From: Spirochaetia bacterium
Lineage (GTDB): Bacteria; Spirochaetota; Spirochaetia; Sphaerochaetales; Sphaerochaetaceae
Direction: 5' to 3'
NCBI GenBank assembly: GCA_022482625.1
Contig: JAKVOU010000001.1
Span: 930,001-994,000, forward strand
Length of the DNA stretch: 64,000 nt
How positions within the stretch are numbered: position 1 is the first letter of the stretch; each line of letters begins with the position of its first letter. The notes under the pieces were generated by a model, which searched no databases, was not told the DNA's origin, and saw only the letters and a program-made list of their open reading frames with translations. Shown here one piece after another: positions 31,543 through 55,693 of the stretch. A program made the translations under genes and the position numbers.

Positions 31543-31552
31543 ATGCTTCGTT

Positions 31553-31636
31553 GCCGAAATGGTGGAATTGGTAGACACAAGGGACTTAAAATCCCTTGTC
31601 CGCAAGGACGTACGGGTTCAAGTCCCGTTTTCGGTA
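31553..31636 (+). tRNA. tRNA-Leu (anticodon UAA)
   Basis: 84-base class II tRNA. Acceptor GCCGAAA pairs with TTTCGGT (closing G-U). The D region holds 'TGGTAGAC', the anticodon arm is GGGA-CTTAAAA-TCCC with anticodon TAA, a long variable arm 'TTGTCCGCAAGGAC' follows, and the T arm is ACGGG-TTCAAGT-CCCGT. CCA is not encoded. It stands alone and borders the AT-rich accessory block. Confidence 0.95.
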
Positions 31637-31978
31637 TGTATGTCTTCGCTGTAACGATCCTCGACAGGAGGTTGGCCTTTGTTTCCAGCGTCTTGATATC
31701 GTCCTTAGCCGCAAGGTCAATCTGCATGGGAAAAAGGGCGTTTATATGTTTAAGAATTAAGGTTCTTATGAGTGGTTTTTGGGGCTTCATTTTCTTTTAG
31801 TCATTTTTCGAAACAATTAGTTACTTTTTTGTTATAACAAGACGAACTTTTTTCGTTATTTTTATTTCGTTCTGTACATTCATAAAATCAGAATATTTTG
31901 TATGTGCATATCATCAAGTAAAAAAATATACACAAATACATTTTTTTCCATACTTTCTAAGTCCAAGAGGAAATAATA
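31637..31978. other. Gene-free stretch after tRNA-Leu
   Basis: About 340 bases, increasingly AT-rich. A short minus-strand frame ('MQIDLAAKDDIKTLETKA') runs through it and into the tRNA and is not credible as a gene. No integrase, and no second copy of the tRNA 3' end was noticed. Confidence 0.45.
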
Positions 31979-33418: not shown

Positions 33419-33852
33419 TTACTTACCATATACTAAATTAAAATTAATCTTAGAAACTATTGGATACCATTGAGGATACCAAATTCTGTAACCATTATAT
33501 ATAGCTATATAATCTTGGTATGTAAAACGAAAAAATCTATCAAAGAAGCAGAAAGTATCAGTATTATTTTGGATATAACCCAATAAAATAATTGGAAATC
33601 CTGTTGAATGTATCAAGATATAACATCATGTGTGGTGTCATGTGTGGTGTCATGTGTGGTGTCATGTGTGGTGTCATGTGTGGTGTCATGTGTGGTGTCA
33701 TGTGTGGTGTCATGTGTGGTTTGATCAATCCATTCATAGCTACAGTATCCAATGGAACAGTTGCCCTGAGCACTTTTCTACTTTTAAAATCAACAAGGAC
33801 TGTTATCTTAGAACTTTGCAACAAGTTTCCTTTTGTATCGTCTGTTACTCGA
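33419..33852 (-). pseudogene. Probable decayed gene containing the 12-bp minisatellite
   Basis: On the minus strand a protein-like stretch without a start ('LGIRVTDDTKGNLLQSSKI', then 'VDFKSRKVLRATVPLDTV') runs into about eight tandem MTPH units and stops at 33564. Another frame continues with an aromatic stretch ('FFDRFFRFTYQDYIAIYN') to 33419 that resembles an outer-membrane strand region. This looks like a broken gene invaded by repeat expansion. The family is not recognised. Confidence 0.35.
33627..33720. repeat. 12-bp tandem repeat, about 7.8 copies
   Basis: The unit CATGTGTGGTGT is repeated without a mismatch from 33627 to 33720. On the minus strand it encodes Met-Thr-Pro-His units. 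Perfect identity means recent expansion. Confidence 0.97.
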
Positions 33853-39112: not shown

Positions 39113-42100
39113 ATGAAACGTATATTTGAATTCCGAAACCAATTAATAGAGAATTTTACTAACTTCTCAACAAGCTTTACAAAAGTAAAAGCAGAAGATA
39201 TCAGAAAAAAGCTTAATGATAGTAAAACAACAAATAAGTTTTGGCCGGAGCCACTTATACAAATCAATCCTCATTATAGGAAAGGTCACACCATTGCAGA
39301 ATTAGTTACATCAGGGATGCTACAACCTGAATGTAATAAGATATTTCGCTTCGGTAATATCAGTCTAAAATTGTTTGCTCATCAAGAACAGGCTATACTT
39401 TTTGCTGAACATAAAGAAAGTTTCGTCGTAACTACAGGAACTGGTTCTGGCAAAAGTTTAGCCTTTTTTGTCCCAATAATTGATACAATCATTCGGGAAA
39501 AGAAAAATAAAGCGGCAAATAGAACCAGAGCAATCATTGTGTACCCAATGAATGCTTTAGCAAACAGCCAATTAGGAGAAATCAACAAATTCCTTCACAA
39601 TTATCCACAATGCAATATTACTGTTTGCCGTTACACCGGGCAGGAAAACACAGCAGAACGAACAAGAATTGCAAATAATCCACCTGATATCCTATTGACA
39701 AATTACATGATGTTAGAATTACTTTTGACACGGTCCGAACCAAATGATAGAAATATCATAGAACACAGCAAACATTTGGAATTTCTTGTGTTGGATGAAT
39801 TGCATACCTACAGAGGTAGACAAGGCGCAGATGTTGCAATGCTTATAAGACGAGTCCGTCAACGGCTTGAAGCTACAGATTTGGTATGCATTGGAACTTC
39901 TGCCACTATGTCAACAATTGGAGAAGGAAATGATAGAGAAAAAGCAGTAGCGGAAGTAGCTTCACTGCTGTTTGGCATAACAATTCCCCCTTCAAAAATA
40001 ATTACGGAAAAATTAAAACGGGTTACACCGGAAAATCAATCAATTCATCCTCAAAAACTACATGATAGAATTATCAGTAACGTACCTTTTTCAAATAATT
40101 ATGATACCCTTGCAAAAGATGAATTATCAATCTGGATTGAACTGACTTTAAGTATAAATTTAAGTTCAAAAGAAGCTCCCAAAAGAGCAATTCCTTTATC
40201 TTTATCAGAAATTACCAAACGTTTATCAAAAACTGCATCAATTCCAGAAGAGCATGCAAAGAAAGTATTAATCGAATTCCTTACCCATTGTGAACACGTA
40301 AAAAAAGACAATGAGCCCCTTTTTGCATTCAAACTTCATCAATTCATTTCTGGACCAGGTTTTCTACTTACAACCCTTGAACCCCAAGGTAAACGAATTA
40401 TTACAGTTGAAGAACAACAATTTGCTCCAGGAAAATCCAAAGATAAAATCAGATTGTTCAGAACCTATTTTTGCAGAGATTGTGGACAAGAATTCATTCC
40501 TGTTTGGTTTGATTCTCATTCGAATAAATTTACACCTCGTCCAATTGACGAAAAACCGACACAAGACGACGGCCCTTCTTTCGGATATCTTATACCTTGG
40601 GATGACAAACAGCTCTTTCAAGGAACCACAGATGGTCTTCCTGATTCTTGGCTTGAAACAAAAACAAATGGCACTGAATCCGTTATACATAATAAAACAC
40701 ATTTCATTCCAATAGATAGAACTGTTGCTCCAGACGGAACTATTTCCACATCAGGAACACGATATTGGTTTATTGAAGGTCCAGCACGCTTTTGTCCTTC
40801 ATGCGGTATAGAATTTGAACCTCGGGCACATGAAAATAACAAATTAGTGGGTTTATCAGGCGAAGGCAGAACAACAGCCACCACAGTAATTACCATTAAC
40901 CTTCTTTATCAATTATTTTCAGAAGAACAAGATAGAGATAAGCGGAAATTATTGGGTTTTACTGACAACAGGCAGGATGCAGCTCTTCAAGCTGGACATT
41001 TCAATGACTTTGTTTATCTTGTAATGATACGAAGTGCTTTGTTAGCAGCATTGGAAAAGGAACAAGGGCCTTTAACTATCGACAACATTGCTCACAGGAT
41101 GTTTGGCGTCTTGGGATTTTTGGATACTGACAATACTGAAGTTTTATCAGAATATTTACTTAATCCAAATATTGCACCGAATATTCAAGAAGGAATTGAA
41201 GAAGCTGCAGAAGGAATTCTTACTTATCGCGTGTTACATGATTTGGAAAGAGGCTGGAAATACAGTAATCCCAATCTTATACAATTGGGATTATTGGAAA
41301 TTAATTACAACAATCTAGATATTTTGATAACAGACGAAAATCTCACTAGTAACTATCCTTTACTTGGCAAACTTGCCCCAACTGTCCGAAAAAAACTATT
41401 TTTAATCCTATTTAATACGCTAAGAGAAACTTTCTGTATAAGTTCAAGATATCTTGACAATATTTTACTAACAAAATGTAAAAACCAAACCTATAATCGA
41501 GTTACTGATCGTTGGGAATTACAAAATCAAGAAAAACTACATTTAGGAAATCGACTGGTATGCGGGAAACGACCTTCGGCACAGCAAACAGGAGCTTTGT
41601 TCAGATACTATAGCGGAAGTTCATCATCTCGATTAGGCCAACGTTTAAGAAAAGTTCTTGCAGAGAAAGATAGTCCCTGGAGCAGAGAGACTGGAACAAC
41701 AATCAACAAAGTAGCAAAGCAACTTATTGGGGAACTTTTGGAAACAGCAGAAGTATATGGACTAGTAATAAAACAAAAAGAATTCCAAAAGAAAAAAGAA
41801 ATTATCAGCTGGCAATTGTCTGATACTGCCATGAGTTGGAATCTAGGAAAACCAAGTAATGAAGGAAAATGGGCTAACCGTTTCTTTTCTACGCTTTATC
41901 GAACCTTAGCTAATCAATTTCAACAAAAAAATTATATGATATTTGGGTTTGAAGCTGCAGAACATACAGCACAAGTAGAACAAGAACGAAGAATTGAATT
42001 AGAACAACGCTTCAGATTTTCAAAAACTGATAAAACTGCATGGGAAACACATCATCAGGGCAATCACCTCAAGCCATTACCAGTGTTATACTGCTCTCCT

Positions 42101-44344
42101 ACAATGGAACTTGGCATCGATATTTCCTCGCTAAATACAGTATATCTACGTAATGTACCGCCAACACCTGCAAATTATGCCCAACGATCTGGACGAGCAG
42201 GAAGATCAGGACAAGCGGCTTTGGTTATTACATATTGTGCAGCACAAAGCCCTCATGACCAATGGTTTTTTCATCATAGTGAACAAATGATACATGGAAT
42301 CGTAAAAACACCATCCTTAGATCTTTCAAATAGAAATCTCATTGAAAGTCATTTCCTTGCTGTTTGGTTTGCCTGTGCAAACTGTCCAATTATTTCTTCT
42401 GTTAATGAAGTCTTGGATAATGAAAAAGTCGATCAAGGATTACCAGTCAAAGAAGAAATCAAAGCAAAATTAGTGGATCCACAAACCATCAAAAATGCAA
42501 AATCTATGGTCATTGCTTTAGCAAAAGACCTACAAGATACTCTGAGCAATCAACAAATACCTTGGTTGGATACTGTCTACGTCCAACACATAATTGACGG
42601 AGCCTTTGAACGCTTTGACCATGCCTTTGACATGTGGAGAAATCTGTATATCTCAACTAAAAAACAAATTGAAACTGCCGCTAAAGTAATGGTAAATCCT
42701 ATGACGACAAAGAAGAAAAGAGATACTTACCAACGAATCAGCATAGATGCTAGCAAACAGTTAAATTTATTATTAGGATCGAATTCTGCTAATGGCCCTT
42801 CTTCAGATTTTTATATTTACCGTTATTTAGCCGGACAAGGTTTTCTACCAGGCTATAACTTCCCTAGACTTCCTTTGCTCGCTTGGTTACCCAGCCCTAC
42901 TCAGGAAGATAACAAAGATAATCAAAACACGATAACAATAAGCCGTCCAAGATTTCTTGCTTTATCCGAATTTGGTCCAGATAGTCTAATCTACCATGAA
43001 GGTAAAATCTTCAAGGTTGTAAAAGTAAAATTCAATGCCACAGAGACAACTTCTTCTTCTACAGGCAACTTTAAACTTTCGACTTCGAATATTACCATTT
43101 GCAATAAATGTGGTTATGGAATTCTTTCTACAAACGGCACGGAAACCGTCATTGATCGCTGTCCTAGATGTAATGCTCCTTTGGATGACTTAGGCCTAAT
43201 TACCTCATTATATCGTATTGAAACGGTGGAAACAAAACTTACAGAACGTATCTCTCTCAACGATGAAGAACGACAACGTCAAGGTTATGATATGCAAATT
43301 ACATTTGCATTTGATAACAAACAGACGAAAAGCCATTTAGAGTGGTCTGTTACATCAAAAGAAGGAAAAGATTTTGTTCAATTTCTCTATGCCCCTGATG
43401 CTACACTTTATAAAATCAATAAAGGTTGGAAACGTAGAACTAATAAAAATATTATGGGATTTCTCATTGATCCACAAACAGGCCTTTGGCTACGTGAATC
43501 TAACAGTTTGGAATCCAATGCCAATAATGAAATCCCTGCCATTGACCATGTTGAATCGCAACGAATTGTCCCATTTGTAGAAGACTACAAAAATATATTA
43601 TTATTTGAACCTCTGGAGCCACTTTCTCAAACTACTATGGTTACATTGCAAGCGGCTTTAAAGCGAGGTATTGAAGAAGTCTTCCAATTAGAAGAATCTG
43701 AATTAGCAGTGGAACCCTTGCCTTCTGCAGATATAAGGAAACAAATTTTGTTCTTTGAAGCTTCAGAGGGAGGTGCAGGTGTTCTTAGTCAAATTGCAGG
43801 TAATGATAAGGCAATATCTGATATTGCAAAGAAAGCATTGGAAATCATGCACTATAAACCAGATTTATGCAACGAACTTACTGTTAAAGAAATTGCGTCA
43901 ACAGATGCAGATGCCCCCTGTGAAACAGGTTGTTACCATTGCCTACTATCTTACCAAAACCAAACTGATCACCAGTTTATCAATCGAAAAGACCCTGATA
44001 CTCTTCGTATTCTTATTGCATTAATAAATGGAACAAGGAAAACATCCGTAAAAACATCTGATAGTTTTAATAATCAGTCTTCAAGTTTTTTACATCTTCT
44101 TGAAACGCTTGGTTATCCTTCAAAAGAATATAAAAGAAAAGTATTACATAATGGTACAGAAATTCCTCTTTATAATGCGTCAAGAAGACTTTGTCTTTTT
44201 TTTACTGCGCCAGAAGAAAAAATCATCTCCTATCTGAAAGAAAAAGTATTGCTAGTTATTATACTTGGAAACAACCCTGATGACTGGGAAGAAAAGATCC
44301 GGCATAATAAAACCATATTCGCAGTTGGAGAAAAAGTCGAATGA
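39113..44344 (+). CDS. Giant DEAD/DEAH-type helicase with C-terminal DUF1998-like cysteine cluster (DrmA/DrmB-fusion-like)
   Basis: 1743 residues. Superfamily 2 helicase motifs: Walker A 'TTGTGSGKSLAFF' (about 105-115), motif II 'LVLDELHTYRGRQG' (about 226), motif III 'GTSATMS' (about 261), motif VI 'YAQRSGRAGRSGQAAL' (about 1022). Two inserted CxxC pairs ('FCRDCGQEF' about 452, 'FCPSCGIEF' about 560), a zinc-ribbon-like region ('CNKCGYGIL', 'CPRCNAPL', about 1330-1355), and the DUF1998-type end 'CETGCYHCLLSYQNQTDH' (about 1602) are visible. DrmA and DrmB of DISARM, DruE of Druantia and MrfA-type helicases share this make-up; in DISARM the helicase and DUF1998 parts are separate proteins. It overlaps the next gene by 4 bases (ATGA). 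AT-rich codons mark it as acquired. Probably translocates on invading DNA. Confidence 0.85.
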   Translation: MKRIFEFRNQLIENFTNFSTSFTKVKAEDIRKKLNDSKTTNKFWPEPLIQINPHYRKGHTIAELVTSGMLQPECNKIFRFGNISLKLFAHQEQAILFAEHKESFVVTTGTGSGKSLAFFVPIIDTIIREKKNKAANRTRAIIVYPMNALANSQLGEINKFLHNYPQCNITVCRYTGQENTAERTRIANNPPDILLTNYMMLELLLTRSEPNDRNIIEHSKHLEFLVLDELHTYRGRQGADVAMLIRRVRQRLEATDLVCIGTSATMSTIGEGNDREKAVAEVASLLFGITIPPSKIITEKLKRVTPENQSIHPQKLHDRIISNVPFSNNYDTLAKDELSIWIELTLSINLSSKEAPKRAIPLSLSEITKRLSKTASIPEEHAKKVLIEFLTHCEHVKKDNEPLFAFKLHQFISGPGFLLTTLEPQGKRIITVEEQQFAPGKSKDKIRLFRTYFCRDCGQEFIPVWFDSHSNKFTPRPIDEKPTQDDGPSFGYLIPWDDKQLFQGTTDGLPDSWLETKTNGTESVIHNKTHFIPIDRTVAPDGTISTSGTRYWFIEGPARFCPSCGIEFEPRAHENNKLVGLSGEGRTTATTVITINLLYQLFSEEQDRDKRKLLGFTDNRQDAALQAGHFNDFVYLVMIRSALLAALEKEQGPLTIDNIAHRMFGVLGFLDTDNTEVLSEYLLNPNIAPNIQEGIEEAAEGILTYRVLHDLERGWKYSNPNLIQLGLLEINYNNLDILITDENLTSNYPLLGKLAPTVRKKLFLILFNTLRETFCISSRYLDNILLTKCKNQTYNRVTDRWELQNQEKLHLGNRLVCGKRPSAQQTGALFRYYSGSSSSRLGQRLRKVLAEKDSPWSRETGTTINKVAKQLIGELLETAEVYGLVIKQKEFQKKKEIISWQLSDTAMSWNLGKPSNEGKWANRFFSTLYRTLANQFQQKNYMIFGFEAAEHTAQVEQERRIELEQRFRFSKTDKTAWETHHQGNHLKPLPVLYCSPTMELGIDISSLNTVYLRNVPPTPANYAQRSGRAGRSGQAALVITYCAAQSPHDQWFFHHSEQMIHGIVKTPSLDLSNRNLIESHFLAVWFACANCPIISSVNEVLDNEKVDQGLPVKEEIKAKLVDPQTIKNAKSMVIALAKDLQDTLSNQQIPWLDTVYVQHIIDGAFERFDHAFDMWRNLYISTKKQIETAAKVMVNPMTTKKKRDTYQRISIDASKQLNLLLGSNSANGPSSDFYIYRYLAGQGFLPGYNFPRLPLLAWLPSPTQEDNKDNQNTITISRPRFLALSEFGPDSLIYHEGKIFKVVKVKFNATETTSSSTGNFKLSTSNITICNKCGYGILSTNGTETVIDRCPRCNAPLDDLGLITSLYRIETVETKLTERISLNDEERQRQGYDMQITFAFDNKQTKSHLEWSVTSKEGKDFVQFLYAPDATLYKINKGWKRRTNKNIMGFLIDPQTGLWLRESNSLESNANNEIPAIDHVESQRIVPFVEDYKNILLFEPLEPLSQTTMVTLQAALKRGIEEVFQLEESELAVEPLPSADIRKQILFFEASEGGAGVLSQIAGNDKAISDIAKKALEIMHYKPDLCNELTVKEIASTDADAPCETGCYHCLLSYQNQTDHQFINRKDPDTLRILIALINGTRKTSVKTSDSFNNQSSSFLHLLETLGYPSKEYKRKVLHNGTEIPLYNASRRLCLFFTAPEEKIISYLKEKVLLVIILGNNPDDWEEKIRHNKTIFAVGEKVE

Positions 44345-47127
44345 ACGAAAATTTATTTACACCTGGTAATCTTGTCTGTGCGAGAGGAAGAAACTGGGTA
44401 GTACAATCTGGTTCAAACATACAAGAACTTCGGTTACGTCCTCTGACCGGTTCAGAGGATGAAGAAATATTTCTTTCACCTGCACTTGAAACAGAAAAAA
44501 TACAACAAGCATTTTTTCCTGATCCTTCTCCTGACCAAATAGGCAGCCTGCGTTCTGGAATATTATTCAGAGAAGCAACAATGATAAAATTGATAAATGG
44601 AGCCGGTCCTTTTCGCTGTTTCGGGCATATTGCAATCGAACCACGCGCCTATCAGTTAGTTCCGTTATTAATGGCCTTAAAGATGGATACTATCAGATTA
44701 TTGATTGCAGATGATGTGGGAATTGGCAAAACAATAGAAGCTGGTTTAATTGTAAGGGAATTATGGGATCGCTTTGAAATTACTCAACTTGCAGTGCTGT
44801 GTCCCCCTCATCTTGTCAGCCAATGGGTAAAGGAACTCAATGAACATTTCCATCTCCCTGCCATAGGTCTGACAGCTTCATCCGTTTTTGCCTTAGAAAG
44901 AAATCTGCCAGTCGGTGCATCACTGTCTGACAAATATCCTGTTTTGGTTGTTTCCTTAGATTATATAAAAAATAATCGGCATCTGAACAATTTTCTTTCA
45001 TCTGCACCAGATTGCATTATAGTCGATGAAGCCCATACGTGTACATTGAAAAGCAATGAACGTAATCTTCGATATGAATTACTCCAACAATTGTCAAGAA
45101 AAAAGACAAGACATATGATTTTCCTTACTGCAACTCCTCATTCAGGTGATGATGAAGCATTTTATAATCTGCTTGGTTTACTAGATGAAAAGTATAACCT
45201 GTTGGCTGATGGTAAAAAACATATAGAACTAAGATCTGATCTTGCATTGCATTTTGTGCAACGACGTCGGCAAGATATTCTAGAATATCAAGAAAATATG
45301 TCATTCCCACAGAAAGTACAAAAAGAAGTTGCGTATAAGCTGACTACTCAATGGGAAGCTTTTTTTGAAAGTGTACGCAGATATTGTGCAAAACTAGGAA
45401 AACAGTATGAAGAAATGGGAAAGCAAAATACCATGATTTGGTATGCAACGCTTGCACTTTTCCGTTGTGCAGCATCGAGCCCTGATGCTGCTATACAAGC
45501 ACTGACAACAAGAAAACAGCATGAAGAAGAAGTCCCTTTGGCTGATGAAGATGTCCTTGATATGGATGAAGTTGCAGACGATGGCAATGTATCTGGTTTC
45601 TACAGCAATAATGATTCTGCAATTAGGGCGCTGCTCCATGATGCAAAGGCTTTGAAACGTGAAGAAGATTCTAAATTAAATTGCCTCATACAAAACTTGA
45701 AACATGATATATTGGATGAAGGTTATCATCCTGTTATTTTTTGTCGGTATATTTCAACAGCCAAGTATGTAGGCAACGCCCTAAAAGACTACTTACCTAA
45801 AAAATATGAAATCAGCGTCATTACCGGAGAACTTACACCTGCAGAACGACAAGAGCGAATTGAAACTCTCAAGGATGTATCTTATCCCATCCTTGTATCG
45901 ACTGATTGTCTATCTGAAGGAATTAATTTACAAGAAAATTTTAATGCAGTCATTCATTATGATTTGGCATGGAATCCGACACGACATGAGCAAAGAGAAG
46001 GACGTATAGACAGATTTGGACAAAGCTCGTCTCAAGTACGTTGTCTCATGCTTTATGGTGAAGATAACCCAATAGACGGTTTTATACTTCGAGTCATTGT
46101 AAAGAAAGCAAAAACTATTAAGGATACTTTGGGTGTATTAGTGCCAATTCCTGAAAATAATGCAGCTATCAGTCACGCCTTGCTTCGAGCGATGTTTTTA
46201 AAAAAATCTATGCAGACAGACAAGCAACTTGAATTTGACTTCGGAGAAATTGATGAAGCAGCAAAGATTCTCGAGACACCTTGGGAAGATGCAATGGAAA
46301 AAGCCAAGAAAAACAGAACAATCTTCGCTCAACATTCTTTGCATCCTGAAAATGTTTTACCAGAATGGGATCGTCAGAAAAAAGTTTTAGGAATTGCTAT
46401 AGAAGACATAGAAGATTTTGTTTCCTTTATTCTTAAACGTTTAGGTTGTGGTTTGACAAAAGAAGGCAATAACCGATGGCTATTCAATCCAACCGACATG
46501 CCACAATCGCTTAGAAAAATGTTCAAATCAATAGGAATAGAAAAACCAATGAGTATATCTTTTAAGTTTCCTGCTCCTTTTGGAAGTACATTTATCCATC
46601 GCAGTCATCCTTTAGTACAGTTGCTAGCAACTTATTTTATGGAATCGATTCTATCAGAAAATTCTCAACAGGCCCTTTTTACGGGGCGTTGTTCGGTCGC
46701 CGAAACCTCTGCAGTGAAAGAAGTGCATACTTTGTATCTCGTTCGTCTGCGGCATCAGGTTACCACTCAACTCAATACAACCATTCGTTGTGTTATGGCC
46801 GAAGAAATAGTTTTGCTCGCTTGTAAAGGCTATACATCCCCACAATGGTTAGAAGAAGATTCAGCACTTCCTTTACTTAACCACAACAGTGAAGTAAATC
46901 TAAACGAAAGATTAAAAAAAACACAAATTGAACACGCCTTGGCTTTCTACCATAAAGAAAAAAATGCAATCACTGAAATTTGTATGAGACACTCTGGCGA
47001 CCTCCTTGAAGATAACCGAAGAGTACGCAGTGCAGCAGCAGGGAAAGGACAAATGAGTGTAAAACCATGTATACCACCGGATTTACTTGGAGTCTATGTT
47101 CTGCTTCCTAGCAACAAGGAGTTATAG
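44341..47127 (+). CDS. SNF2/RapA-type helicase (DrmD-like)
   Basis: 928 residues. Walker A 'ADDVGIGKTIEAGLIVREL' (about 124), motif II 'IIVDEAHTCTL' (about 228), motif III 'FLTATPHSGDDEAFYNLLGL' (about 262), and the C-terminal helicase motifs 'LVSTDCLSEGINLQ' (about 520) and 'QREGRIDRFGQ' (about 550). The rest, about 350 residues, is helical and family-specific. SNF2 proteins of this size next to a methylase and a DUF1998 helicase are the DrmD component of class 1 DISARM. Translation is coupled with the preceding gene (4-base overlap) and the stop lies 1 base before the methylase ATG. Confidence 0.85.
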   Translation: MNENLFTPGNLVCARGRNWVVQSGSNIQELRLRPLTGSEDEEIFLSPALETEKIQQAFFPDPSPDQIGSLRSGILFREATMIKLINGAGPFRCFGHIAIEPRAYQLVPLLMALKMDTIRLLIADDVGIGKTIEAGLIVRELWDRFEITQLAVLCPPHLVSQWVKELNEHFHLPAIGLTASSVFALERNLPVGASLSDKYPVLVVSLDYIKNNRHLNNFLSSAPDCIIVDEAHTCTLKSNERNLRYELLQQLSRKKTRHMIFLTATPHSGDDEAFYNLLGLLDEKYNLLADGKKHIELRSDLALHFVQRRRQDILEYQENMSFPQKVQKEVAYKLTTQWEAFFESVRRYCAKLGKQYEEMGKQNTMIWYATLALFRCAASSPDAAIQALTTRKQHEEEVPLADEDVLDMDEVADDGNVSGFYSNNDSAIRALLHDAKALKREEDSKLNCLIQNLKHDILDEGYHPVIFCRYISTAKYVGNALKDYLPKKYEISVITGELTPAERQERIETLKDVSYPILVSTDCLSEGINLQENFNAVIHYDLAWNPTRHEQREGRIDRFGQSSSQVRCLMLYGEDNPIDGFILRVIVKKAKTIKDTLGVLVPIPENNAAISHALLRAMFLKKSMQTDKQLEFDFGEIDEAAKILETPWEDAMEKAKKNRTIFAQHSLHPENVLPEWDRQKKVLGIAIEDIEDFVSFILKRLGCGLTKEGNNRWLFNPTDMPQSLRKMFKSIGIEKPMSISFKFPAPFGSTFIHRSHPLVQLLATYFMESILSENSQQALFTGRCSVAETSAVKEVHTLYLVRLRHQVTTQLNTTIRCVMAEEIVLLACKGYTSPQWLEEDSALPLLNHNSEVNLNERLKKTQIEHALAFYHKEKNAITEICMRHSGDLLEDNRRVRSAAAGKGQMSVKPCIPPDLLGVYVLLPSNKEL

Positions 47128-47128
47128 T

Positions 47129-50100
47129 ATGGCAAGAAGTACTACGCATTTATGGCAAAATATTCATCTCGAAGGTACAATTTTTTCAAATGACCAGCTT
47201 GAAGCAATTTCTTGTGAGAACGCAATAGCACAAAAAAAAGAGGATTATCAAATACCTCCAGGATTATCCTTGCTTGATGAAATCGGTCGATCATACCAGA
47301 TTGCTCGAGCTCTTTCCAAACAATTTGAGATAAAAATAACAAATAAAGAAAATAATATACGTCTGGTTACACAAGAATTTGTACGTAGATTCTTTACTAT
47401 GTGTCTTGGCTGGGATTTGCAAGCAGTCAGATCAAAACATATAGAACAATATGGTTACCCATTACAACGTATTGCATATGATTTGGTACCACTGACTGTT
47501 TGTCCTGCTAATCTTACACTTGATTTTTCTGACAGTGCTTTCTCTGTAAGCAATGGAGGTTCTTCAAAGCTTACAGTAACCCAGATGGTACAAGAGTATC
47601 TAGATAGTGTCGGACGAGAACGATGGGGGGTAGTTTCAAATGGTAAGTCAATTCGTTTACTTAGATCGTCTCCAACGCTTTCTCGTCCCCAATATCTGGA
47701 ATTTGATCTTCTAGCTATCCTTGAAGCTGATTCTTATAATGAATATGGAATCCTTTGGAGAATATTCCATGTCTCAAGAATTCATGATGCAATTAATGAC
47801 ATCCCTTTGCATATCTGGGAAGAATGGAGAAATACAGCTATTGAAGGTGGAGAACGGATTAGAGAAAGATTACGAAAAGGTGTTACAGAAGCCCTCTGCA
47901 TCCTTGGTTCAGGTTTCCTAAACAATCCAAAAAATTCATTACTTTATGAAAAACTAGCCACAGGATCATTGACAGAACAGACTTATCACCAACAGTTGCT
48001 TCATTTAATTTATAGACTCTTGTTTATATTTGCAACAGAAGAAAGGAAAAGCGACAAAGGACTAAGGCTTATTTTTTTGCAGGATCCTTTACTGACGAAA
48101 GAAAGAGATCTATATGATAAAGGTTATAGTCAAGCCCGATTACGTATCATTTTGAATTCTATATCCAATTTCAATGCGTACAATGATCTCTGGGAAGCAC
48201 AGAAAATTGTATTCCGTTGTTTGGAAAAAGGAGAAAGAAAACTTGCTCTTCCAGCGCTCGGAGGATTATTTCTTCACACTCAGTGCCTCGATTTAGATAC
48301 GGCAAAATTATCAAACGAGGCTTTTCTATCTGCTTTATATTGTTTGCGGTGGTCCCAAGAAGATAATTATAGTCATTGGGTAGATTATGGTAATATGGGA
48401 ACTGAAGAACTAGGTTCTGTATATGAAAGTCTACTTGAACTGATTCCCCATGTAGATTTGGATACAAAATCTTTTCGTTTCATCGGGATTTCAGATGAAG
48501 AAGATACAGCAGGTAATCTGCGAAAGACAACAGGTAGCTATTACACACCTCACTTTCTCGTTGAACATTTGATAGAAACAACACTTGTACCTGTTCTTGA
48601 AAAGAAAATTAAGGAGAATTCTACTGATCCTGAAACCGCAATTTTGTCATTGAAAGTAGTCGACCCTGCTTGTGGAAGTGGGCATTTCCTTCTCGCTGCA
48701 GCTCGTACAATAGCCGTACGACTAACAAAACTGAGAAGTGATGCAAATACCCCTGATGGTTATCGTGATGCTTTACGGTTAGTAATCAAAAACTGTATCT
48801 TCGGAGTAGATATTAACCCAATGGCCGTAGAATTGACAAAAATGTCCCTTTGGTTGGAAGGATTTGAACCTGAAAAACCTCTTGGTTTTCTAGATTCACA
48901 TATCCTTTGCGGTAATTCATTGCTCGGTGTCTTTAATCTTTCCATATTGGATTATGGTATTCCATCTGATGCTTATAAAAAACTTACAAAAGATGATACC
49001 GAGATCTGCAAAGAACTTCGAAAATGTAATAGTGCTGAACAAAAAAATCTTCAAGTTTATAAAAATGATAAAACAATTCGACAAGGAACTTTATTTGATG
49101 AGACAGAAGAAGAAAACCCGCTTTCAGAAATCACCAATTTACCAGAAGATTCATTAGAAGAAATCACAACAAAAACAAAACGTTATAAAGAACAATTAAC
49201 TAAGTTGAATGATATGGTAGATATGATTGCTGCAGATACTTATATAGGTGCATTTCTGACGGTCAAAGACAATTCTTCAATCGTTCCTACGACAAGACTA
49301 CTGCGACAAATAAGGGAAAATCTGAAAATTGATGAAAAAGATAAAAATGCAATTGAAACCAGCAGGAAAACAGCAAGAGAAGCAAAAGCTTTTCATTGGC
49401 CTTTGATGTTTCCAAATGTCTTTTCTTCTGGTGGATTTGATGTCGTCCTTGGTAATCCCCCATGGGAACGTATAACACTGCAAGAGAAAGAATTCTTTGC
49501 ATCGAGAAGACCAGATATTGCAAATGCTATGAATGCTGCACAAAGGAGAAAGAAAATCTCTAAGTTAGGAAAATCAGAAGTGAATACCCCTGATCAACTT
49601 CTCTACCAGCAATTTTTATCAGCTTGTCATACAGCAGAAACACAAAGTACATTCTTCCATGTCAATAACAAAAACCAAGGTCAATACCCACTTTCAGGTA
49701 AAGGCGATGTCAATTTGTATGCTCTTTTTACCGAACTATTTTCTAAACTAAAGAAAAAGGAAGGATCTGCAGGTATAATTGTTCCAACAGGAATTGCAAC
49801 TGATGATTCCACAAAGGAACTATTCGCTTCCTTTATTAATAACGAAGAATTGCAATCCTTATATGATTTTGAAAACCAAAATATTTTCCCAGCAGTACAT
49901 AAAAGTTATAAATTTTGCCTACTTACCCTTTCCAAGACTAAAACTGCAGACTTTGCCTGTTTCTTGCACACAATACAGGATTTGGATGATGATCGACGAC
50001 ATTTCCAAATGGAAGCTTCTGATTTTGATCTAATAAATCCCAATACGCATTCCCTTCCTCTGTTCAGAAGCAAGGCAGATGCAGAACTGACAAAGCAAAT

Positions 50101-51175
50101 GTACCGACATTCGCAAGTAATTTGGAATGAAAATGATACAAAATCAGGAAATCCTTGGAATCTATCTTTTTCTCGATTATTTGATATGTCCAATGATTCC
50201 AAACTTTTCCAGACACAAGCAAATTCCAGTTGTTATCCCCTGTATGAAGCAAAAATGATACACCGATATGACCACAGATGGGCAACCTTTGATGGTGCTA
50301 CCGATAAAAAAGGAAATCTGATTACGAGAAATGTTACTCCTGAAGAAAAACAAAACCCCGGTTTTGAAATCAAGCCTCGTTATTGGGTTGATAAAAGACA
50401 AGTTTTAGCAAGAATTGCACAAAACGTACCTTCAAAAGTAATCAAGGCATGGCTTGACCATGATGAAACACAGCTAAGGGAAGAACTTCTTTATTCAAAC
50501 AACGCTATTCTTTCCAAGCTAGGAGATTCTACGCAGATCTGGCAAGATATGGACCAATTTATGGACCAGCAAAGTCCTAAATGGTTAATGGGATGGAGAG
50601 ATATTACTAATTCGACAAATATGAGAACCACCATTGCTACAATAATTCCACGATCTGCAACAAACGATAAGTTTCTATCGATTATGAATTTAGATACCAC
50701 ACAAGCAATGATATTTCTTTCATGTGTAAACAGCCTAATTTTCGACTATATAGCACGCAAAAAAGTTGGTGGAACCGATATGAAATATTTTATTTTCAAA
50801 CAGCTTGCTTGTATTCCCCCAAAGGCTTTTTCTGATATACAAAAACAATTTATTGTAACAAGAGTTCAGAAATTGCTAGCAACTTCAACTGCAATGGCAA
50901 AAGCTCTGGATTGTAATTTACATCCATATAATGAAGAGGAAAGAGCAATACTACAAGCTGAAATAGATGCTTTTTATGCTAAAAAATATGGCTTATCACA
51001 GAAAGACCTAGAATATATTTTAGATCCCCAATCTATAATGGGCAAAGATTATCCGACCCAAACCTTTCCAGGGCTAAAAACCGACGAAGAAAAACAATAT
51101 GGTGAATATCGAACTAAACGACTCACACTTGAAGCTTGGAATCGCTTGGAAAAGGACCCTGCCCTATGGACATAG
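47129..51175 (+). CDS. Eco57I-type N6-adenine DNA methyltransferase (DrmMI/PglX-like)
   Basis: 1348 residues from ATG 47129, which has AAGGAG about 8 bases upstream; an in-frame extension to 47087 overlaps the SNF2 gene and is not used. Motif I 'VVDPACGSGHFLLAAARTIA' (about 510) and motif IV 'VVLGNPPWERI' (about 775) define a gamma-class amino-methyltransferase. 'ELGSVYESLLELIP' (about 427) is a family landmark of Eco57I/PglX-like enzymes. The N-terminal 400 residues include a restriction-endonuclease-like segment ('VRRFFTMCLGWDLQAV', 'WGVVSNGKSIRLLR') but no obvious PD-ExK set; the C-terminal part is the target-recognition region. It should protect host DNA by methylating a specific site. 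Confidence 0.88.
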   Translation: MARSTTHLWQNIHLEGTIFSNDQLEAISCENAIAQKKEDYQIPPGLSLLDEIGRSYQIARALSKQFEIKITNKENNIRLVTQEFVRRFFTMCLGWDLQAVRSKHIEQYGYPLQRIAYDLVPLTVCPANLTLDFSDSAFSVSNGGSSKLTVTQMVQEYLDSVGRERWGVVSNGKSIRLLRSSPTLSRPQYLEFDLLAILEADSYNEYGILWRIFHVSRIHDAINDIPLHIWEEWRNTAIEGGERIRERLRKGVTEALCILGSGFLNNPKNSLLYEKLATGSLTEQTYHQQLLHLIYRLLFIFATEERKSDKGLRLIFLQDPLLTKERDLYDKGYSQARLRIILNSISNFNAYNDLWEAQKIVFRCLEKGERKLALPALGGLFLHTQCLDLDTAKLSNEAFLSALYCLRWSQEDNYSHWVDYGNMGTEELGSVYESLLELIPHVDLDTKSFRFIGISDEEDTAGNLRKTTGSYYTPHFLVEHLIETTLVPVLEKKIKENSTDPETAILSLKVVDPACGSGHFLLAAARTIAVRLTKLRSDANTPDGYRDALRLVIKNCIFGVDINPMAVELTKMSLWLEGFEPEKPLGFLDSHILCGNSLLGVFNLSILDYGIPSDAYKKLTKDDTEICKELRKCNSAEQKNLQVYKNDKTIRQGTLFDETEEENPLSEITNLPEDSLEEITTKTKRYKEQLTKLNDMVDMIAADTYIGAFLTVKDNSSIVPTTRLLRQIRENLKIDEKDKNAIETSRKTAREAKAFHWPLMFPNVFSSGGFDVVLGNPPWERITLQEKEFFASRRPDIANAMNAAQRRKKISKLGKSEVNTPDQLLYQQFLSACHTAETQSTFFHVNNKNQGQYPLSGKGDVNLYALFTELFSKLKKKEGSAGIIVPTGIATDDSTKELFASFINNEELQSLYDFENQNIFPAVHKSYKFCLLTLSKTKTADFACFLHTIQDLDDDRRHFQMEASDFDLINPNTHSLPLFRSKADAELTKQMYRHSQVIWNENDTKSGNPWNLSFSRLFDMSNDSKLFQTQANSSCYPLYEAKMIHRYDHRWATFDGATDKKGNLITRNVTPEEKQNPGFEIKPRYWVDKRQVLARIAQNVPSKVIKAWLDHDETQLREELLYSNNAILSKLGDSTQIWQDMDQFMDQQSPKWLMGWRDITNSTNMRTTIATIIPRSATNDKFLSIMNLDTTQAMIFLSCVNSLIFDYIARKKVGGTDMKYFIFKQLACIPPKAFSDIQKQFIVTRVQKLLATSTAMAKALDCNLHPYNEEERAILQAEIDAFYAKKYGLSQKDLEYILDPQSIMGKDYPTQTFPGLKTDEEKQYGEYRTKRLTLEAWNRLEKDPALWT

Positions 51176-51921
51176 ATTATTATACCTTCATGCTTGTAGA
51201 TAATATTGCAATAACATCAGGTTGGGAAAACGTTAGCAAGCTCAACAATACATGCATTGAAATATCCTCTGCTTTACATCATTTCAGAGGATTTATCCAA
51301 TTAGTCAAAAAGGAACAATATAAGTTATCATTTTCGTCTTCTACTCTGTCAGAAGAACTTGCAAAGCAATATAGTGAGAGTTCCCTTGCACAAATTGATG
51401 GAATTGATACTCTTCGGCTTATCCTAAAGAAAGCATCTGTTTTGGCGTCTGTATTGCCAGATACACCATTACAAATATATTTAGAAAAAATCAAGAATCT
51501 CAATATTGATGATACAACGATAAAGAACGAAGTTACACAAAGAATTGGCCAAACATGTTACAGAGATGCCTTGATAAAATATTGGAATGGCAAATGCGCC
51601 CTTACAGGTTTAGATATTCCCGAATTGCTCTATGCTAGTCATGCAAAACCATGGGCTGATTGTACCACCGCAACAGAACGGCTCAATGTATTTAACGGCT
51701 TACTTTTGGAAAGTCGTTTTGACAAGCTTTTTGATCAGGGTTATATTTCATTTGCTAACGATGGACGCATTTTGATCTCTCCTGTTCTTACTCCTTCCCA
51801 ATTGCAATTACTCGGACTCTATCCCTCCTTGCAGATAAGGAGACTAAGGCCAGAACATTTTGTCTTTTTGCAATATCATAGAGAACATATATTCAAGAAA
51901 AATAAATTAGTCAGCACTTAA
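51166..51921 (+). CDS. HNH endonuclease of the defence operon
   Basis: 251 residues from ATG 51166, overlapping the methylase end by 10 bases, with AAAGGA upstream. The C-terminal HNH domain (HNH_2 type) reads 'KCALTGLDIPELLYASHAKPW', then 'RLNVFNGLLLESRFDKLFDQGY' (about 143-195), with the catalytic His in 'ASHAKPW' and the Asn in 'FNGLLL'. The N-terminal 120 residues ('ALHHFRGFIQLVKKEQYKL') are helical and may bind DNA or a partner. It is the only clear nuclease of the four-gene operon. Its stop overlaps the stop of the convergent helicase gene. Confidence 0.86.
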   Translation: MDIDYYTFMLVDNIAITSGWENVSKLNNTCIEISSALHHFRGFIQLVKKEQYKLSFSSSTLSEELAKQYSESSLAQIDGIDTLRLILKKASVLASVLPDTPLQIYLEKIKNLNIDDTTIKNEVTQRIGQTCYRDALIKYWNGKCALTGLDIPELLYASHAKPWADCTTATERLNVFNGLLLESRFDKLFDQGYISFANDGRILISPVLTPSQLQLLGLYPSLQIRRLRPEHFVFLQYHREHIFKKNKLVST

Positions 51922-53687
51922 ACATAGATATATTCCCAATTAGATATGGAAAAGCGTGATAATAAAAATTGATTCTCTATTTTTGGCATAGCAATAACAA
52001 GAAGTTTTCTTGGTCTTGTCATTGCAACATAGGCTATTCTCATTAATTCAGTATCTAATGAGCCTTCACAAAGAAATCGTGAAGTAATCGTATTTCCTTT
52101 GTTGTTTCCTACAAGTAACATCAAAGCATCATAAGTTTGTCCTTTTACACCATGTACAGAAGATTCTGTATATGATGATTGATTTATAGTTTCAAAATAA
52201 CTTTTCAAAGGTATTGTCTTGAAATCTTTAACTTTTTGATCCCGTTTCTTAATTTTTATAACACCTTGAATAGTTTTATCTTTTAACAATGTAAGGTTAT
52301 ATTGACAACATAATTTATTTATCTGTTCTATTAGTCTTTTAACCCAATCTGATAGTGGTAAGTTTGCAGATGGAAGTTTTATTAATAATTCAACTACAAT
52401 AGAGTGCCAAAATTCATAAGGCATGCAATTTTCAATTTCTACTCTAAAATCATCTTGAATATCTTTATATCCCTTAATAATTAGCCCAAACAAACCTTTT
52501 TCACAAAATTCATAAGCTTTTTTCCTTGATCCTGCCATCCATTCATATGAAGCATTTGCAAAGAATTTGACTTCAGGGCTTTTCCAAAGGCCAGAAACTT
52601 CCCTATTAGAACTAATTCTTCCACGAGTGACAATGGCAACATGTGAAGCATCAATAGTAATTGCATGTTCAATACAGATTTCTCTAAATTTTTCTATTAT
52701 CTTCCCTTTATTATTTTTTATATTTCCTTCATACAATAACAATATAGGTTCTTGAGAGTAAGCAACATCTGAACCAATAGCTTTGCTTGGTTCTGTCCCC
52801 TCTAAAGATTTTGAAAAAAATCTCGTAACATTACAGATCAATTGTGAACTTCGAAAATTGCCAGTTAACCGTAATGTACGCCACTTATCACTATCGATTT
52901 TATCTCTAAAACATTTCGGAGTTGCATTTCTCCATTCATAAATTGATTGATCAGGGTCACCTATCAAAAACATAGATTTTGTTCCCGCCTGATTGATTAA
53001 ATCCAATACAGCCATCTGTTCTGCAGAAGAATCTTGTGCTTCATCAACAATAATTACAGGGAAACGTGTTGCAATAGCCGCTGCAATATTAGGATGTTTT
53101 TTTAGTAATAAATAGGCAAAACTTGCTGTTTCACTTTGAAATATAAGTCCTTTTTTTAGCAACAGTTTTTTGTATTGTTCACATGGAAGCGCAGCTCCTT
53201 TTTCTTTTTTACAACGAATATTCTCATTATTATATAACAATCTGCCATTTTTATCCCATCTGAAGCTACTTATGTTAGTAACACATCCTTTACGATAACA
53301 CTCAGATTTCCATTGGAAGAAGGGAAGCAAAAACAAATCATCCAGAGAAATAATAGGACGTTTTGGTTCAGGATAGAGCAAATATCCAAATCTTAGTAAA
53401 ATATATTTATTGATAAAACTATCTAAGGTCCCTAAATAATGTGGATAGCCAGTATCGAATCCTGGTAAAATCATTTCTTGTACTTGTTGCTTAACTTCTT
53501 CGCTGGCAACATTCGTGAAAGAGAGAATTGCTACCCCCTGGTGAGGTTGTTTCCAATTTTCCACATACTGTACAAATTTTTTTGCAATACTTGTGGTTTT
53601 GCCACTACCAGGGCAAGCTTGGAGTACAATATTGCCCTCAGCCTTAAGAAAAATATTTTGTTCTTCTGTAAAGTTATACATAAGCAT
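51918..53687 (-). CDS. UvrD/PcrA-like helicase (GajB-like)
   Basis: 589 residues, superfamily 1 helicase. Walker A 'LQACPGSGKTTSIAKKF' (about 23-38), motif II 'VIIVDEAQDSSAEQ' (about 212), motif III/IV 'IGDPDQSIYEWRNATPK' (about 242) and motif VI 'MRIAYVAMTRPRKLLVIA' (about 560) are present. The accessory 2B-like region is reduced, as in GajB. It overlaps the upstream OLD-nuclease gene (TAATG), so the two proteins are translated together. Pairing with an OLD-family nuclease is the hallmark of Gabija. A second in-frame ATG (53681) is an equally good start. Confidence 0.85.
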   Translation of the reverse strand: MLMYNFTEEQNIFLKAEGNIVLQACPGSGKTTSIAKKFVQYVENWKQPHQGVAILSFTNVASEEVKQQVQEMILPGFDTGYPHYLGTLDSFINKYILLRFGYLLYPEPKRPIISLDDLFLLPFFQWKSECYRKGCVTNISSFRWDKNGRLLYNNENIRCKKEKGAALPCEQYKKLLLKKGLIFQSETASFAYLLLKKHPNIAAAIATRFPVIIVDEAQDSSAEQMAVLDLINQAGTKSMFLIGDPDQSIYEWRNATPKCFRDKIDSDKWRTLRLTGNFRSSQLICNVTRFFSKSLEGTEPSKAIGSDVAYSQEPILLLYEGNIKNNKGKIIEKFREICIEHAITIDASHVAIVTRGRISSNREVSGLWKSPEVKFFANASYEWMAGSRKKAYEFCEKGLFGLIIKGYKDIQDDFRVEIENCMPYEFWHSIVVELLIKLPSANLPLSDWVKRLIEQINKLCCQYNLTLLKDKTIQGVIKIKKRDQKVKDFKTIPLKSYFETINQSSYTESSVHGVKGQTYDALMLLVGNNKGNTITSRFLCEGSLDTELMRIAYVAMTRPRKLLVIAMPKIENQFLLSRFSISNWEYIYV

Positions 53688-55693
53688 TATCGAGTTGTTG
53701 TTACAGAATAAATGGCATTCTTGATATATTCAGGCACAACAAATGGAGAAGTTACAGTTTCATCCTCTGCAATTTTTTTAAGTTGCTGCTTGATTATTCT
53801 GCTTAATGATTGTGCAATCTGTGCTTTTGATGCATCCCTCTTACGTATAAATAGCCATATCATAATTGCCTTATTATCCAAAGAAGAATCTTGTTCAACT
53901 TCCTTTTTAAGTTCAACACCAACTTGAGGAAATACATCAACAATAGCTTCAAGCATGTATTGAATATTATCCTTTTCCAAAGCCAATTCATATTCAAATG
54001 TTTTTCTTGCCTGATAAAAGCCAATTCCATAATTTGAACACAATGCTTGAATTTTTGCACATCTATCAGAACAGGTACCTTTATCTAACTTGTTCAAAAT
54101 ATCAGTTAAATCAGTTTTAAAATCAGTTTTAAAATCAAGATCTTTTGAGATATAAGTATCCAAAGAATTAGCATCTGAACATCGATCATCATCTGTAACA
54201 ATTGCGGTTTTTGCAAAACTTCCCTTTTCCCCTGGTAAAGTTGCTATTTTAGCAAAAGGAGTAAATGCAGTTCCATTGATATTGACTAATTCAACTGCAT
54301 ACTTATCAAATTGCCGATTTAACAAAGCCGCGAAATCAGGAAGAAGTATAGCCTCACTAATTCCCTCAACAAATAGAATACCCTTAGCAAAGAACATTTG
54401 AGACTTAGTAACATCAATATATTTTTCTAAATAATCTTTCTCTTTTTCCTCTAAGTTTGCATCTTCCAAAGGATAGCAACAGACTGCATGATTTTTCTCA
54501 TATAAAAGATTAATAGCATTGATATCAATCCTAGATACCAAGGTCGGAGAATGTGAAGTATAAATTACTTGTATCACAGAAGAGGTATTGTAACGTTTCT
54601 CAAAAAAACTATGTATAAGTTCCTGTAATTGGGGATGTAAATGGGCCTCAGGTTCTTCAACTACAAATAGATTTAAATATACGCCTGATTTTTCCAGTGA
54701 CATATCTCCTAATACAGTAGCCATAAATAAAATATTATTATATCCCAAACCATTCTGATATAACTCAAATGAATGATTCCTCAGTAATCTCAATGAAGAC
54801 TTTAGTGAATCGTCTGAATCCTCAGAAACCTTTAAAAATTCATCAATTGCCAAATACATACCGTCATCTGTTTGCTGAATAAGACGCGAAAACTTCGGAT
54901 CAATACACTTTGAAATAATTCTATCATAATACTCATAATCTTTTTGAATAAAATACCATTTAGGAAGAATCCAAGATCGGAGTGAAGAGGTAATTGACTC
55001 AAAACGAGGTTCTACAAGACCAATATCTATTTGCTGAGATAACAGCTCTTGTTCAATTTCCTGAAGATTAGCATTGATTATATCTTTAATTTGTATAATT
55101 GGCTCTGCTTGCAATAATTGAGTATTTGATTGTTGTAATATATTTACTAAATCTGCTTTTTTATCATCATCTTCAACAACAGTATCTAATAAAGTAGCAA
55201 GCTTACTTGAACGAGACGGCTTCATTTCATTTTCTGCATCACGCAAGGCACCTAAGTAGGCTAAATTAATTGCATAAAAAGTTTCTGCAGAAAGTTGATT
55301 CCCTTCCTCTTTGTCACCCCAGGCCTTATACTTCACTTTTCTATTTCCATAAGAAGAAGAATCTATATAAAAGTGAATATGGAACTCACCTAGAGACTCA
55401 CCTTGAGGATCCCAAATTTCAATTAATTGCTTAGGTACATCTTCAAGATAAACATCAAACTGAGAAGTTTCTGCACGTTTTCCTTGGGCATCAATATGAA
55501 AATCTGCTTTACTGAAAAAAATATCTTTTCGATAGAGTACAGCACCAAAGGCAATCCTGATTGCATCAATGACTGCCGATTTTCCAGTGTTATTTTCTCC
55601 AATAATGGCATTAACACCTTTATTAAACTTTACAGTTATACCTTTTGCATCAAAAATACGAAAATTTCTAATTACTATCTTTTTCAAGTACAT
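53687..55693 (-). CDS. OLD-family ATPase/TOPRIM nuclease (GajA-like)
   Basis: 668 residues. An ABC-type ATPase head begins at the N-terminus ('VNAIIGENNTGKSAVIDAIR', P-loop about 32), with the signature and 'LFVVEEPEAHLHPQLQELIH' (Walker B) in the middle. The C-terminal TOPRIM domain has the conserved Glu in 'ILFVEGISEAILLPDFAAL' (about 440) and the Asp pair in 'AIVTDDDRCSD' (about 500). GajA of Gabija is a sequence-specific nicking enzyme inhibited by nucleotides. This one is about 90 residues longer than the Bacillus reference as I recall it. AGGA lies eight bases before ATG 55693. Confidence 0.86.
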   Translation of the reverse strand: MYLKKIVIRNFRIFDAKGITVKFNKGVNAIIGENNTGKSAVIDAIRIAFGAVLYRKDIFFSKADFHIDAQGKRAETSQFDVYLEDVPKQLIEIWDPQGESLGEFHIHFYIDSSSYGNRKVKYKAWGDKEEGNQLSAETFYAINLAYLGALRDAENEMKPSRSSKLATLLDTVVEDDDKKADLVNILQQSNTQLLQAEPIIQIKDIINANLQEIEQELLSQQIDIGLVEPRFESITSSLRSWILPKWYFIQKDYEYYDRIISKCIDPKFSRLIQQTDDGMYLAIDEFLKVSEDSDDSLKSSLRLLRNHSFELYQNGLGYNNILFMATVLGDMSLEKSGVYLNLFVVEEPEAHLHPQLQELIHSFFEKRYNTSSVIQVIYTSHSPTLVSRIDINAINLLYEKNHAVCCYPLEDANLEEKEKDYLEKYIDVTKSQMFFAKGILFVEGISEAILLPDFAALLNRQFDKYAVELVNINGTAFTPFAKIATLPGEKGSFAKTAIVTDDDRCSDANSLDTYISKDLDFKTDFKTDLTDILNKLDKGTCSDRCAKIQALCSNYGIGFYQARKTFEYELALEKDNIQYMLEAIVDVFPQVGVELKKEVEQDSSLDNKAIMIWLFIRKRDASKAQIAQSLSRIIKQQLKKIAEDETVTSPFVVPEYIKNAIYSVTTTR

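Follow-up and report, generated by a model that had tools for sequence, protein, structure and literature searches.

A four-gene ARMADA Type I operon from a Spirochaetia bacterium with a degenerate Vsr-like helicase tail and a separate HNH nuclease gene

Which defence system is formed by four co-directional genes in the genome of a Spirochaetia bacterium, and which of their products cuts DNA? The genes occupy positions 39113-51921 on the + strand of a stretch of 64,000 nucleotides (the window, i.e., all of the DNA that was analysed), and the ORF list of the window shows them overlapping or abutting (Table 1), in agreement with the extents and the spacing (a 4-base overlap, a 1-base gap and a 10-base overlap) given in an initial annotation. 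Longer TTG starts listed for the third and fourth gene were set aside as mechanical, and the ATG codons at 47129 and 51166 were used. Pfam identifies DEAD, Helicase_C and MZB/DUF1998 domains in the first gene (g1), SNF2 and Helicase_C in the second (g2), Eco57I/N6_Mtase in the third (g3), which carries the motifs DPACGSG and NPPW, and HNH_2 in the fourth (g4). The domains first called for these genes, a helicase with a DUF1998-like end, an SNF2 helicase, an Eco57I-type methylase and an HNH nuclease, were thus confirmed. The sequence indicates that the active sites of the ATPase, the methylase and the HNH protein are intact.

The operon lies within an AT-rich island (GC content 0.31-0.41 between about 32 and 60 kb, versus 0.43-0.51 in the flanks) and adjoins a complete Gabija gene pair that is convergent with it; it had rightly been described early on as an operon of the defence type with ties to DISARM and Druantia. 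In PADLOC, GajB matches with 532 bits over residues 5-573 of 581 and GajA with 561 bits over the entire protein, and GajB and the HNH gene share 4 bases at their 3' ends. The 64-kb window contains no second copy of the 3' end of tRNA-Leu, which leaves the right boundary of the island undefined. When the genus was searched for an empty site, matches to the left flank were limited to some 80 bp around the tRNA gene, and the DNA that matched the right flank was 66-68% identical; with matches that short on the left and that divergent on the right, no empty site is demonstrable in the genus. Promoters and terminators were predicted no more often than in shuffled sequence. Other features of the region are an array of a 12-base tandem repeat (TCATGTGTGGTG) at 33602-33745, in an AT-rich stretch near tRNA-Leu, a gene inside the island for a likely surface protein of 660 aa that contains GLUG and Listeria-Bacteroides repeats (56000-57982, - strand), and a probably broken MATE transporter gene, represented by two adjoining ORFs of 312 and 183 aa (58863-60359, - strand).

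Table 1. Features of the operon and its surroundings, in window coordinates
Feature	Position	Strand	Description
tRNA-Leu(taa)	31552..31637	+	Left edge of the AT-rich island
g1, YprA-family helicase of the ARMADA Type I kind	39113..44344	+	1743 aa; DEAD helicase, MrfA-type Zn domain (MZB/DUF1998), degenerate Vsr-like tail
MZB (DUF1998) Zn-binding domain	43646..43945	+	g1 residues 1512-1611; Pfam PF09369, E 3.8e-9
Vsr-like (PD-(D/E)xK) domain, predicted catalytically dead	44057..44329	+	g1 residues ~1649-1739; from alignment with intact relatives
g2, BrxHII/RapA-like SNF2 helicase	44341..47127	+	928 aa; 4-base overlap with g1
g3, PglX/DrmMI-like Eco57I-type N6-adenine methyltransferase	47129..51175	+	1348 aa; ATG start; 1-base gap after g2
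g4, stand-alone HNH nuclease	51166..51921	+	251 aa; ATG start; 10-base overlap with g3
HNH active site	51640..51735	+	Codons H 51640, N 51694, D 51721, D 51733, corresponding to VcaM4I H224, N241, D250, D254
Gabija	51918..55693	-	GajB 51918-53687, GajA 53687-55693; complete pair, convergent with the operon

ARMADA Type I, as set out in the main text of a 2025 preprint by Bell et al. (PMC12458937), which covers about 52,000 YprA proteins, begins with a YprA homologue, followed by a BrxHII-like helicase and then by a PglX-like methylase. The same text places its YprA protein nearest to Druantia DruE, describes BrxA-like, beta-barrel Zn and MarR-like insertions around RecA2, and treats a predicted active Vsr nuclease at the helicase C-terminus as typical, while membership is defined by clade and gene order. 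The genes g1-g2-g3 stand in this order, and so do those of their relatives: a neighbourhood check, as suggested in the initial annotation, found the order kept in nearly all of 90 loci from many phyla. The recurrence of g1-g2-g3 in nearly all of these loci, many of them closed by the HNH family, is not chance. In PADLOC, DruE1 is the best profile match of g1 (342 bits), versus 53 bits for DrmA. A tree that is rooted on Druantia-like helicases, and built without the named ARMADA Type I and II reference proteins, places g1 within a single clade of YprA-SNF2-MTase operons. By gene order and profile scores, the operon is classed as ARMADA Type I. This corrects its annotation, since PADLOC labels pieces of the system DruE, DpdE, DrmD and DrmMI, and none of the listed families connects the HNH gene with this system. 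According to the main text of PMC12458937, anti-phage activity of ARMADA has been published for Type II only, in which the helicases/ATPases and the methylase are required for defence and protection occurs without abortive death; the published ArmC mutants affect ATPase motifs, and no nuclease requirement is reported even there.

The distinct DISARM type that had been proposed for this operon was not recovered. That the operon is a true DISARM type, its DrmA and DrmB fused and an HNH protein standing in for DrmC, is very improbable: DrmD and DrmMI have their homologues in g2 and g3, but g1 is far nearer to DruE than to DrmA by the scores above, g2 reaches 302.9 bits against a curated NCBIfam cut-off of 610 for DrmD, and everything except the HNH gene is explained by ARMADA. 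DISARM class 1 was rejected because one fused helicase is present, and neither a separate DrmB nor DrmC is found among the operon genes. The profile comparison proposed with the DISARM reading supports the relation to Druantia through the match of g1 to DruE1 and, through the cut-off missed by g2, speaks against a DISARM type. The fusion of A and B is likewise no novelty, as the DUF1998-fused helicase is the usual YprA state and the separate DrmB is the exception found in DISARM. A search for DrmA across the phylum gave no match, and its positive control was silent as well.

The nuclease expected at the end of the g1 helicase seems to be degenerate. In an alignment of the helicase tails of the window and 66 relatives, two classes are found, 24 intact and 43 dead (that of the window and those of 42 relatives). 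Assignment to a class relied in part on residues that are also tabulated here, the catalytic E not being one of them: E, D, D and H are complete in 24/24 intact tails, while among the dead ones E is kept in 2/43, a deletion has removed the loop that carries the catalytic H in 43/43 and the other positions are scrambled. In g1 of the window, all four residues are lost. Pfam DUF559 matches 4/4 scanned intact tails, three of them above the cut-off, and gives no match in the three dead tails scanned (window, L097 and L034). The AF2 model of g1 covers its C-terminal 244 residues; the modelled MZB domain matches MrfA (6znp, Z 7.6) and DrmAB (7s9v, Z 6.3), and the Vsr-like tail is predicted as a folded domain with pLDDT mostly >90. 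VIA-align superimposes the tail on I-Bth0305I with Z 7.3 and an rmsd of 3.2 over 83 residues, and on AbaSI with Z 5.4, matches that are weak if taken alone. The alignment and the model are best read as describing a putative pseudo-nuclease, in which the fold has been kept and the catalytic set is gone.

The g4 protein consists of an N-terminal domain and a VcaM4I-like HNH domain, modelled with pLDDT 94. The latter matches VcaM4I by sequence (E 3e-39) and by structure (Z 16.8), and the closest solved relatives of g4 are the modification-dependent nucleases VcaM4I and TagI. In VcaM4I, H224, N241, D250 and D254 are the assigned active-site residues, and their mutants have been tested; the equivalents are invariant in 36/36 homologues of g4 and present in the window protein. 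A sequence search of the N-terminal third for a modified-base reader (EVE, SRA) gave no match, and the PDB match begins at residue 119. In a structure search, residues 5-107 yield weak RWD-like matches to Mediator and kinetochore proteins (Z 5-7), which lie below the noise level of the tool, so that no fold is claimed for this domain.

The HNH family is located downstream of the methylase and on the same strand in 42 loci of those examined. It follows the methylase directly in, for example, Myxococcus (L069), Corallococcus (L072) and Rhodoblastus (L102), and elsewhere lies behind variable cargo. A whole-genome search with the family alignment located it just beyond the locus end in L015, L016, L017, L036, L040, L048, L054 and L061, and the whole-genome search of ten active-Vsr genomes for the HNH family found none; L057 was left uncounted, its match lying some 13 kb beyond the end of the locus and possibly on a different contig. 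Of the resolvable loci, 43/44 with a dead Vsr and 7/19 with an active Vsr have the HNH gene (Fisher p 2e-7, a value that overstates independence, since in the main sample Vsr was lost in essentially a single event on the tree). As the loci were ranked by similarity to g2 of the window, the branch of the window is over-sampled. A sign test on independent pairs had only one pair and no power. The association between the HNH gene and a dead Vsr is numerically strong and is not composed of independent repeats. The initial annotation had placed HNH in the position of the missing nuclease; its presence where a nuclease is expected is upheld, while its replacing DrmC is not, because what it accompanies is the death of the helicase-fused Vsr.

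Of 393 genomes of the phylum, four have the HNH family at full length; they are exactly those with a dead-Vsr g1, and it is found in 0/5 genomes with an active-Vsr g1. Proteins that share only the HNH domain occur in 28 further genomes of this set, matches that start only at residue 77 onward not being counted as family members. In plasmid records, the HNH gene was found in 0/7 active-Vsr operons, including that of Deinococcus radiodurans R1, and in 5/7 dead-Vsr operons, its position on the Hydrogenimonas plasmid being taken from coordinates. Plasmid pISP0 of Sphingomonas sp. MM-1 has, like the window, a compact operon of four genes. A dead Vsr without an HNH gene occurs in L051 (Methylobacter, with a broken methylase) and on the plasmids of Kozakia, where IS21 follows g3, and Chlorohelix. 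On the Candidatus Chlorohelix plasmid (L133, 12492-30037), the Vsr residues were lost independently, no HNH gene is present and a large EVE-HTH-AAA_5 (McrB-like) gene is next after the methylase. The D. radiodurans R1 plasmid MP1 (L131, 12495-24965) carries an active-Vsr ARMADA Type I operon, which may be broken, as its methylase is split into two ORFs with ISDra3 adjoining. On the Acidithiobacillus caldus megaplasmid (L128), a Phd/VapC toxin-antitoxin pair lies between the SNF2 helicase and the methylase (23234-23868).

The cargo between methylase and HNH varies among L015/L025, L016, L027, L098, L034 and L104, and includes McrB-like AAA with McrC, a second SNF2 helicase, SIR2, LmuB-like SMC and OLD-like ATPases. 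The HNH gene could itself be cargo swept along downstream in islands that collect nucleases, its link to Vsr loss then being a founder effect in one lineage. Such a history is quite unlikely. It fits the single Vsr death on the tree and the LmuB-like SMC, SIR2, McrBC and OLD-like ATPases that likewise occur between g3 and HNH, but while this cargo varies, the HNH gene stays downstream of the core, usually as the last gene, in five or more phyla; the residues of its active site do not vary, and in none of the 393 genomes was the full-length family found elsewhere than in operons of this kind. Its divergence also tracks that of g1: distances for g1 and g4 agree despite the intervening cargo (Mantel r 0.88, 0/999 permutations as high).

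The order of events was read from a helicase tree built without the Vsr tail, on which the Vsr state changes once and the HNH state three times. Basal lineages have an active Vsr and no HNH gene, a clade of nine rows (Burkholderiales, Thauera and Accumulibacter) has an active Vsr and mostly an HNH gene, and a 54-row clade that includes the window has a dead Vsr and an HNH gene. HNH gain and Vsr death both fall on starred branches, and the Druantia-like outgroup backs a polarity in which the gain came first and the loss later. On the plainest reading, the HNH gene would have joined the operon first and Vsr would have decayed once afterwards. The path would lead from an ancestor with a fused active Vsr, through addition of an HNH gene at the operon end, to a state in which Vsr was inactivated and HNH kept.

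The main rival to an effector role of the HNH protein is that it serves as an auxiliary or backup nuclease, a separate and possibly modification-dependent (Type IV-like) restriction enzyme, which accompanies ARMADA and catches phages with modified bases that defeat the adenine-methylation check, while the helicases alone block phage DNA. This is unlikely, although the nearest solved relatives VcaM4I and TagI are modification-dependent, one active-Vsr clade also has the HNH gene, and according to published work BREX and related systems commonly have backup nucleases, among them HNH proteins. Retention of HNH is near-complete only where Vsr is dead, which suggests a need and not an option, and the N-terminal region of g4 is unlike EVE or SRA by sequence, its fold matches being weak.

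The operon thus probably encodes, as far as sequence comparison can tell, a four-gene ARMADA Type I anti-phage system of a branch in which DNA is cut by a separate HNH endonuclease. Recognition of self via DNA modification has been proposed for DISARM and ARMADA, and DruE has been reported to load on DNA containing 3' single-stranded DNA. In the proposed mechanism, g3 would methylate adenines of the host genome as the mark of self, and g1 and g2 would act as translocases that, as DruE and DrmAB do, engage foreign or single-stranded-DNA-containing DNA and unwind or remodel it. Recruitment of the HNH protein, for which the dead Vsr domain is perhaps the site, would follow, and this protein would cleave the DNA. 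A broader proposal is more tentative: that this is a widespread ARMADA subtype in which the pseudo-nuclease has become a docking or licensing platform for the HNH effector and, in addition, the gap between methylase and HNH is a slot for interchangeable effectors (Lamassu-like SMC, SIR2, McrBC, OLD-like ATPases).

The three-gene core and its order are known from ARMADA Type I, as described in the main text of PMC12458937, and what is new is the nuclease arrangement. In a widespread branch of ARMADA Type I, the nuclease of the helicase is predicted to be dead and a separate HNH protein seems to have taken over. This dead-Vsr/HNH branch is apparently undescribed. The initial annotation had asked for a published type with all four components; none was found, and in the main text of PMC12458937, as distinct from its supplement, which may mention HNH, the term occurs only in a reference title. 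The literature search found no other account of an HNH swap in ARMADA. For Type-1 BR (DUF499 systems), whose helicase is without a fused nuclease, nearby HNH and other nucleases are thought to compensate (PMC12839542), and the idea of a nuclease swap thus has a precedent in BREX-related systems. The ARMADA nuclease has so far been a predicted one, and a fused nuclease lost after a second had joined constitutes a natural experiment on the activity that is needed. The surviving clade with both nucleases represents an intermediate step of the swap.

Compared with known systems, the g4 protein shares the HNH fold with VcaM4I (EVE-HNH) and TagI and has all four active-site residues of VcaM4I; unlike these enzymes, it has no EVE or SRA reader recognisable by sequence and is operonic with helicases and a methylase. 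The DUF499-centred BREX-related systems (Hma) also combine an N6-methylase and an SNF2 helicase, but the operon has a YprA helicase instead of the DUF499 ATPase. Dpd, suggested by a full-length PADLOC match of g2 to 'DpdE' (576 bits), was rejected, as this is the model of an SNF2 partner and no 7-deazaguanine genes are found among the operon genes. Druantia provides in DruE the best profile match of g1, but has no SNF2-methylase pair beside its helicase, and g1 lies outside the Druantia-like rows of the tree; Druantia was rejected, as the partners here are SNF2, N6-methylase and HNH, and DruH or the DruABCD/DruMFG partners are absent. DISARM class 1 has an SNF2 helicase (DrmD) and a methylase (DrmMI) homologous to g2 and g3; its DrmA and DrmB are separate, the PLD nuclease DrmC is present, and g1 is weak against DrmA. 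ARMADA Type II, for which defence was shown experimentally in E. coli, shares the three homologous core genes, but arranges them as SNF2, methylase and YprA, followed by a RelE-GajB fusion. It was ruled out because the gene order differs and GajB is the partner of GajA, both on the opposite strand; nor is the window GajB its ArmD, since it is a full-length GajB match without an extra N-terminal domain and belongs to the separate Gabija system. The closest likeness is to ARMADA Type I, with a YprA-like helicase, a BrxHII-like SNF2 helicase and a PglX-like methylase in the same order and the same affinity to DruE; that type has been described with an active Vsr and no HNH gene, whereas here Vsr appears to be dead and a conserved HNH gene comes last.
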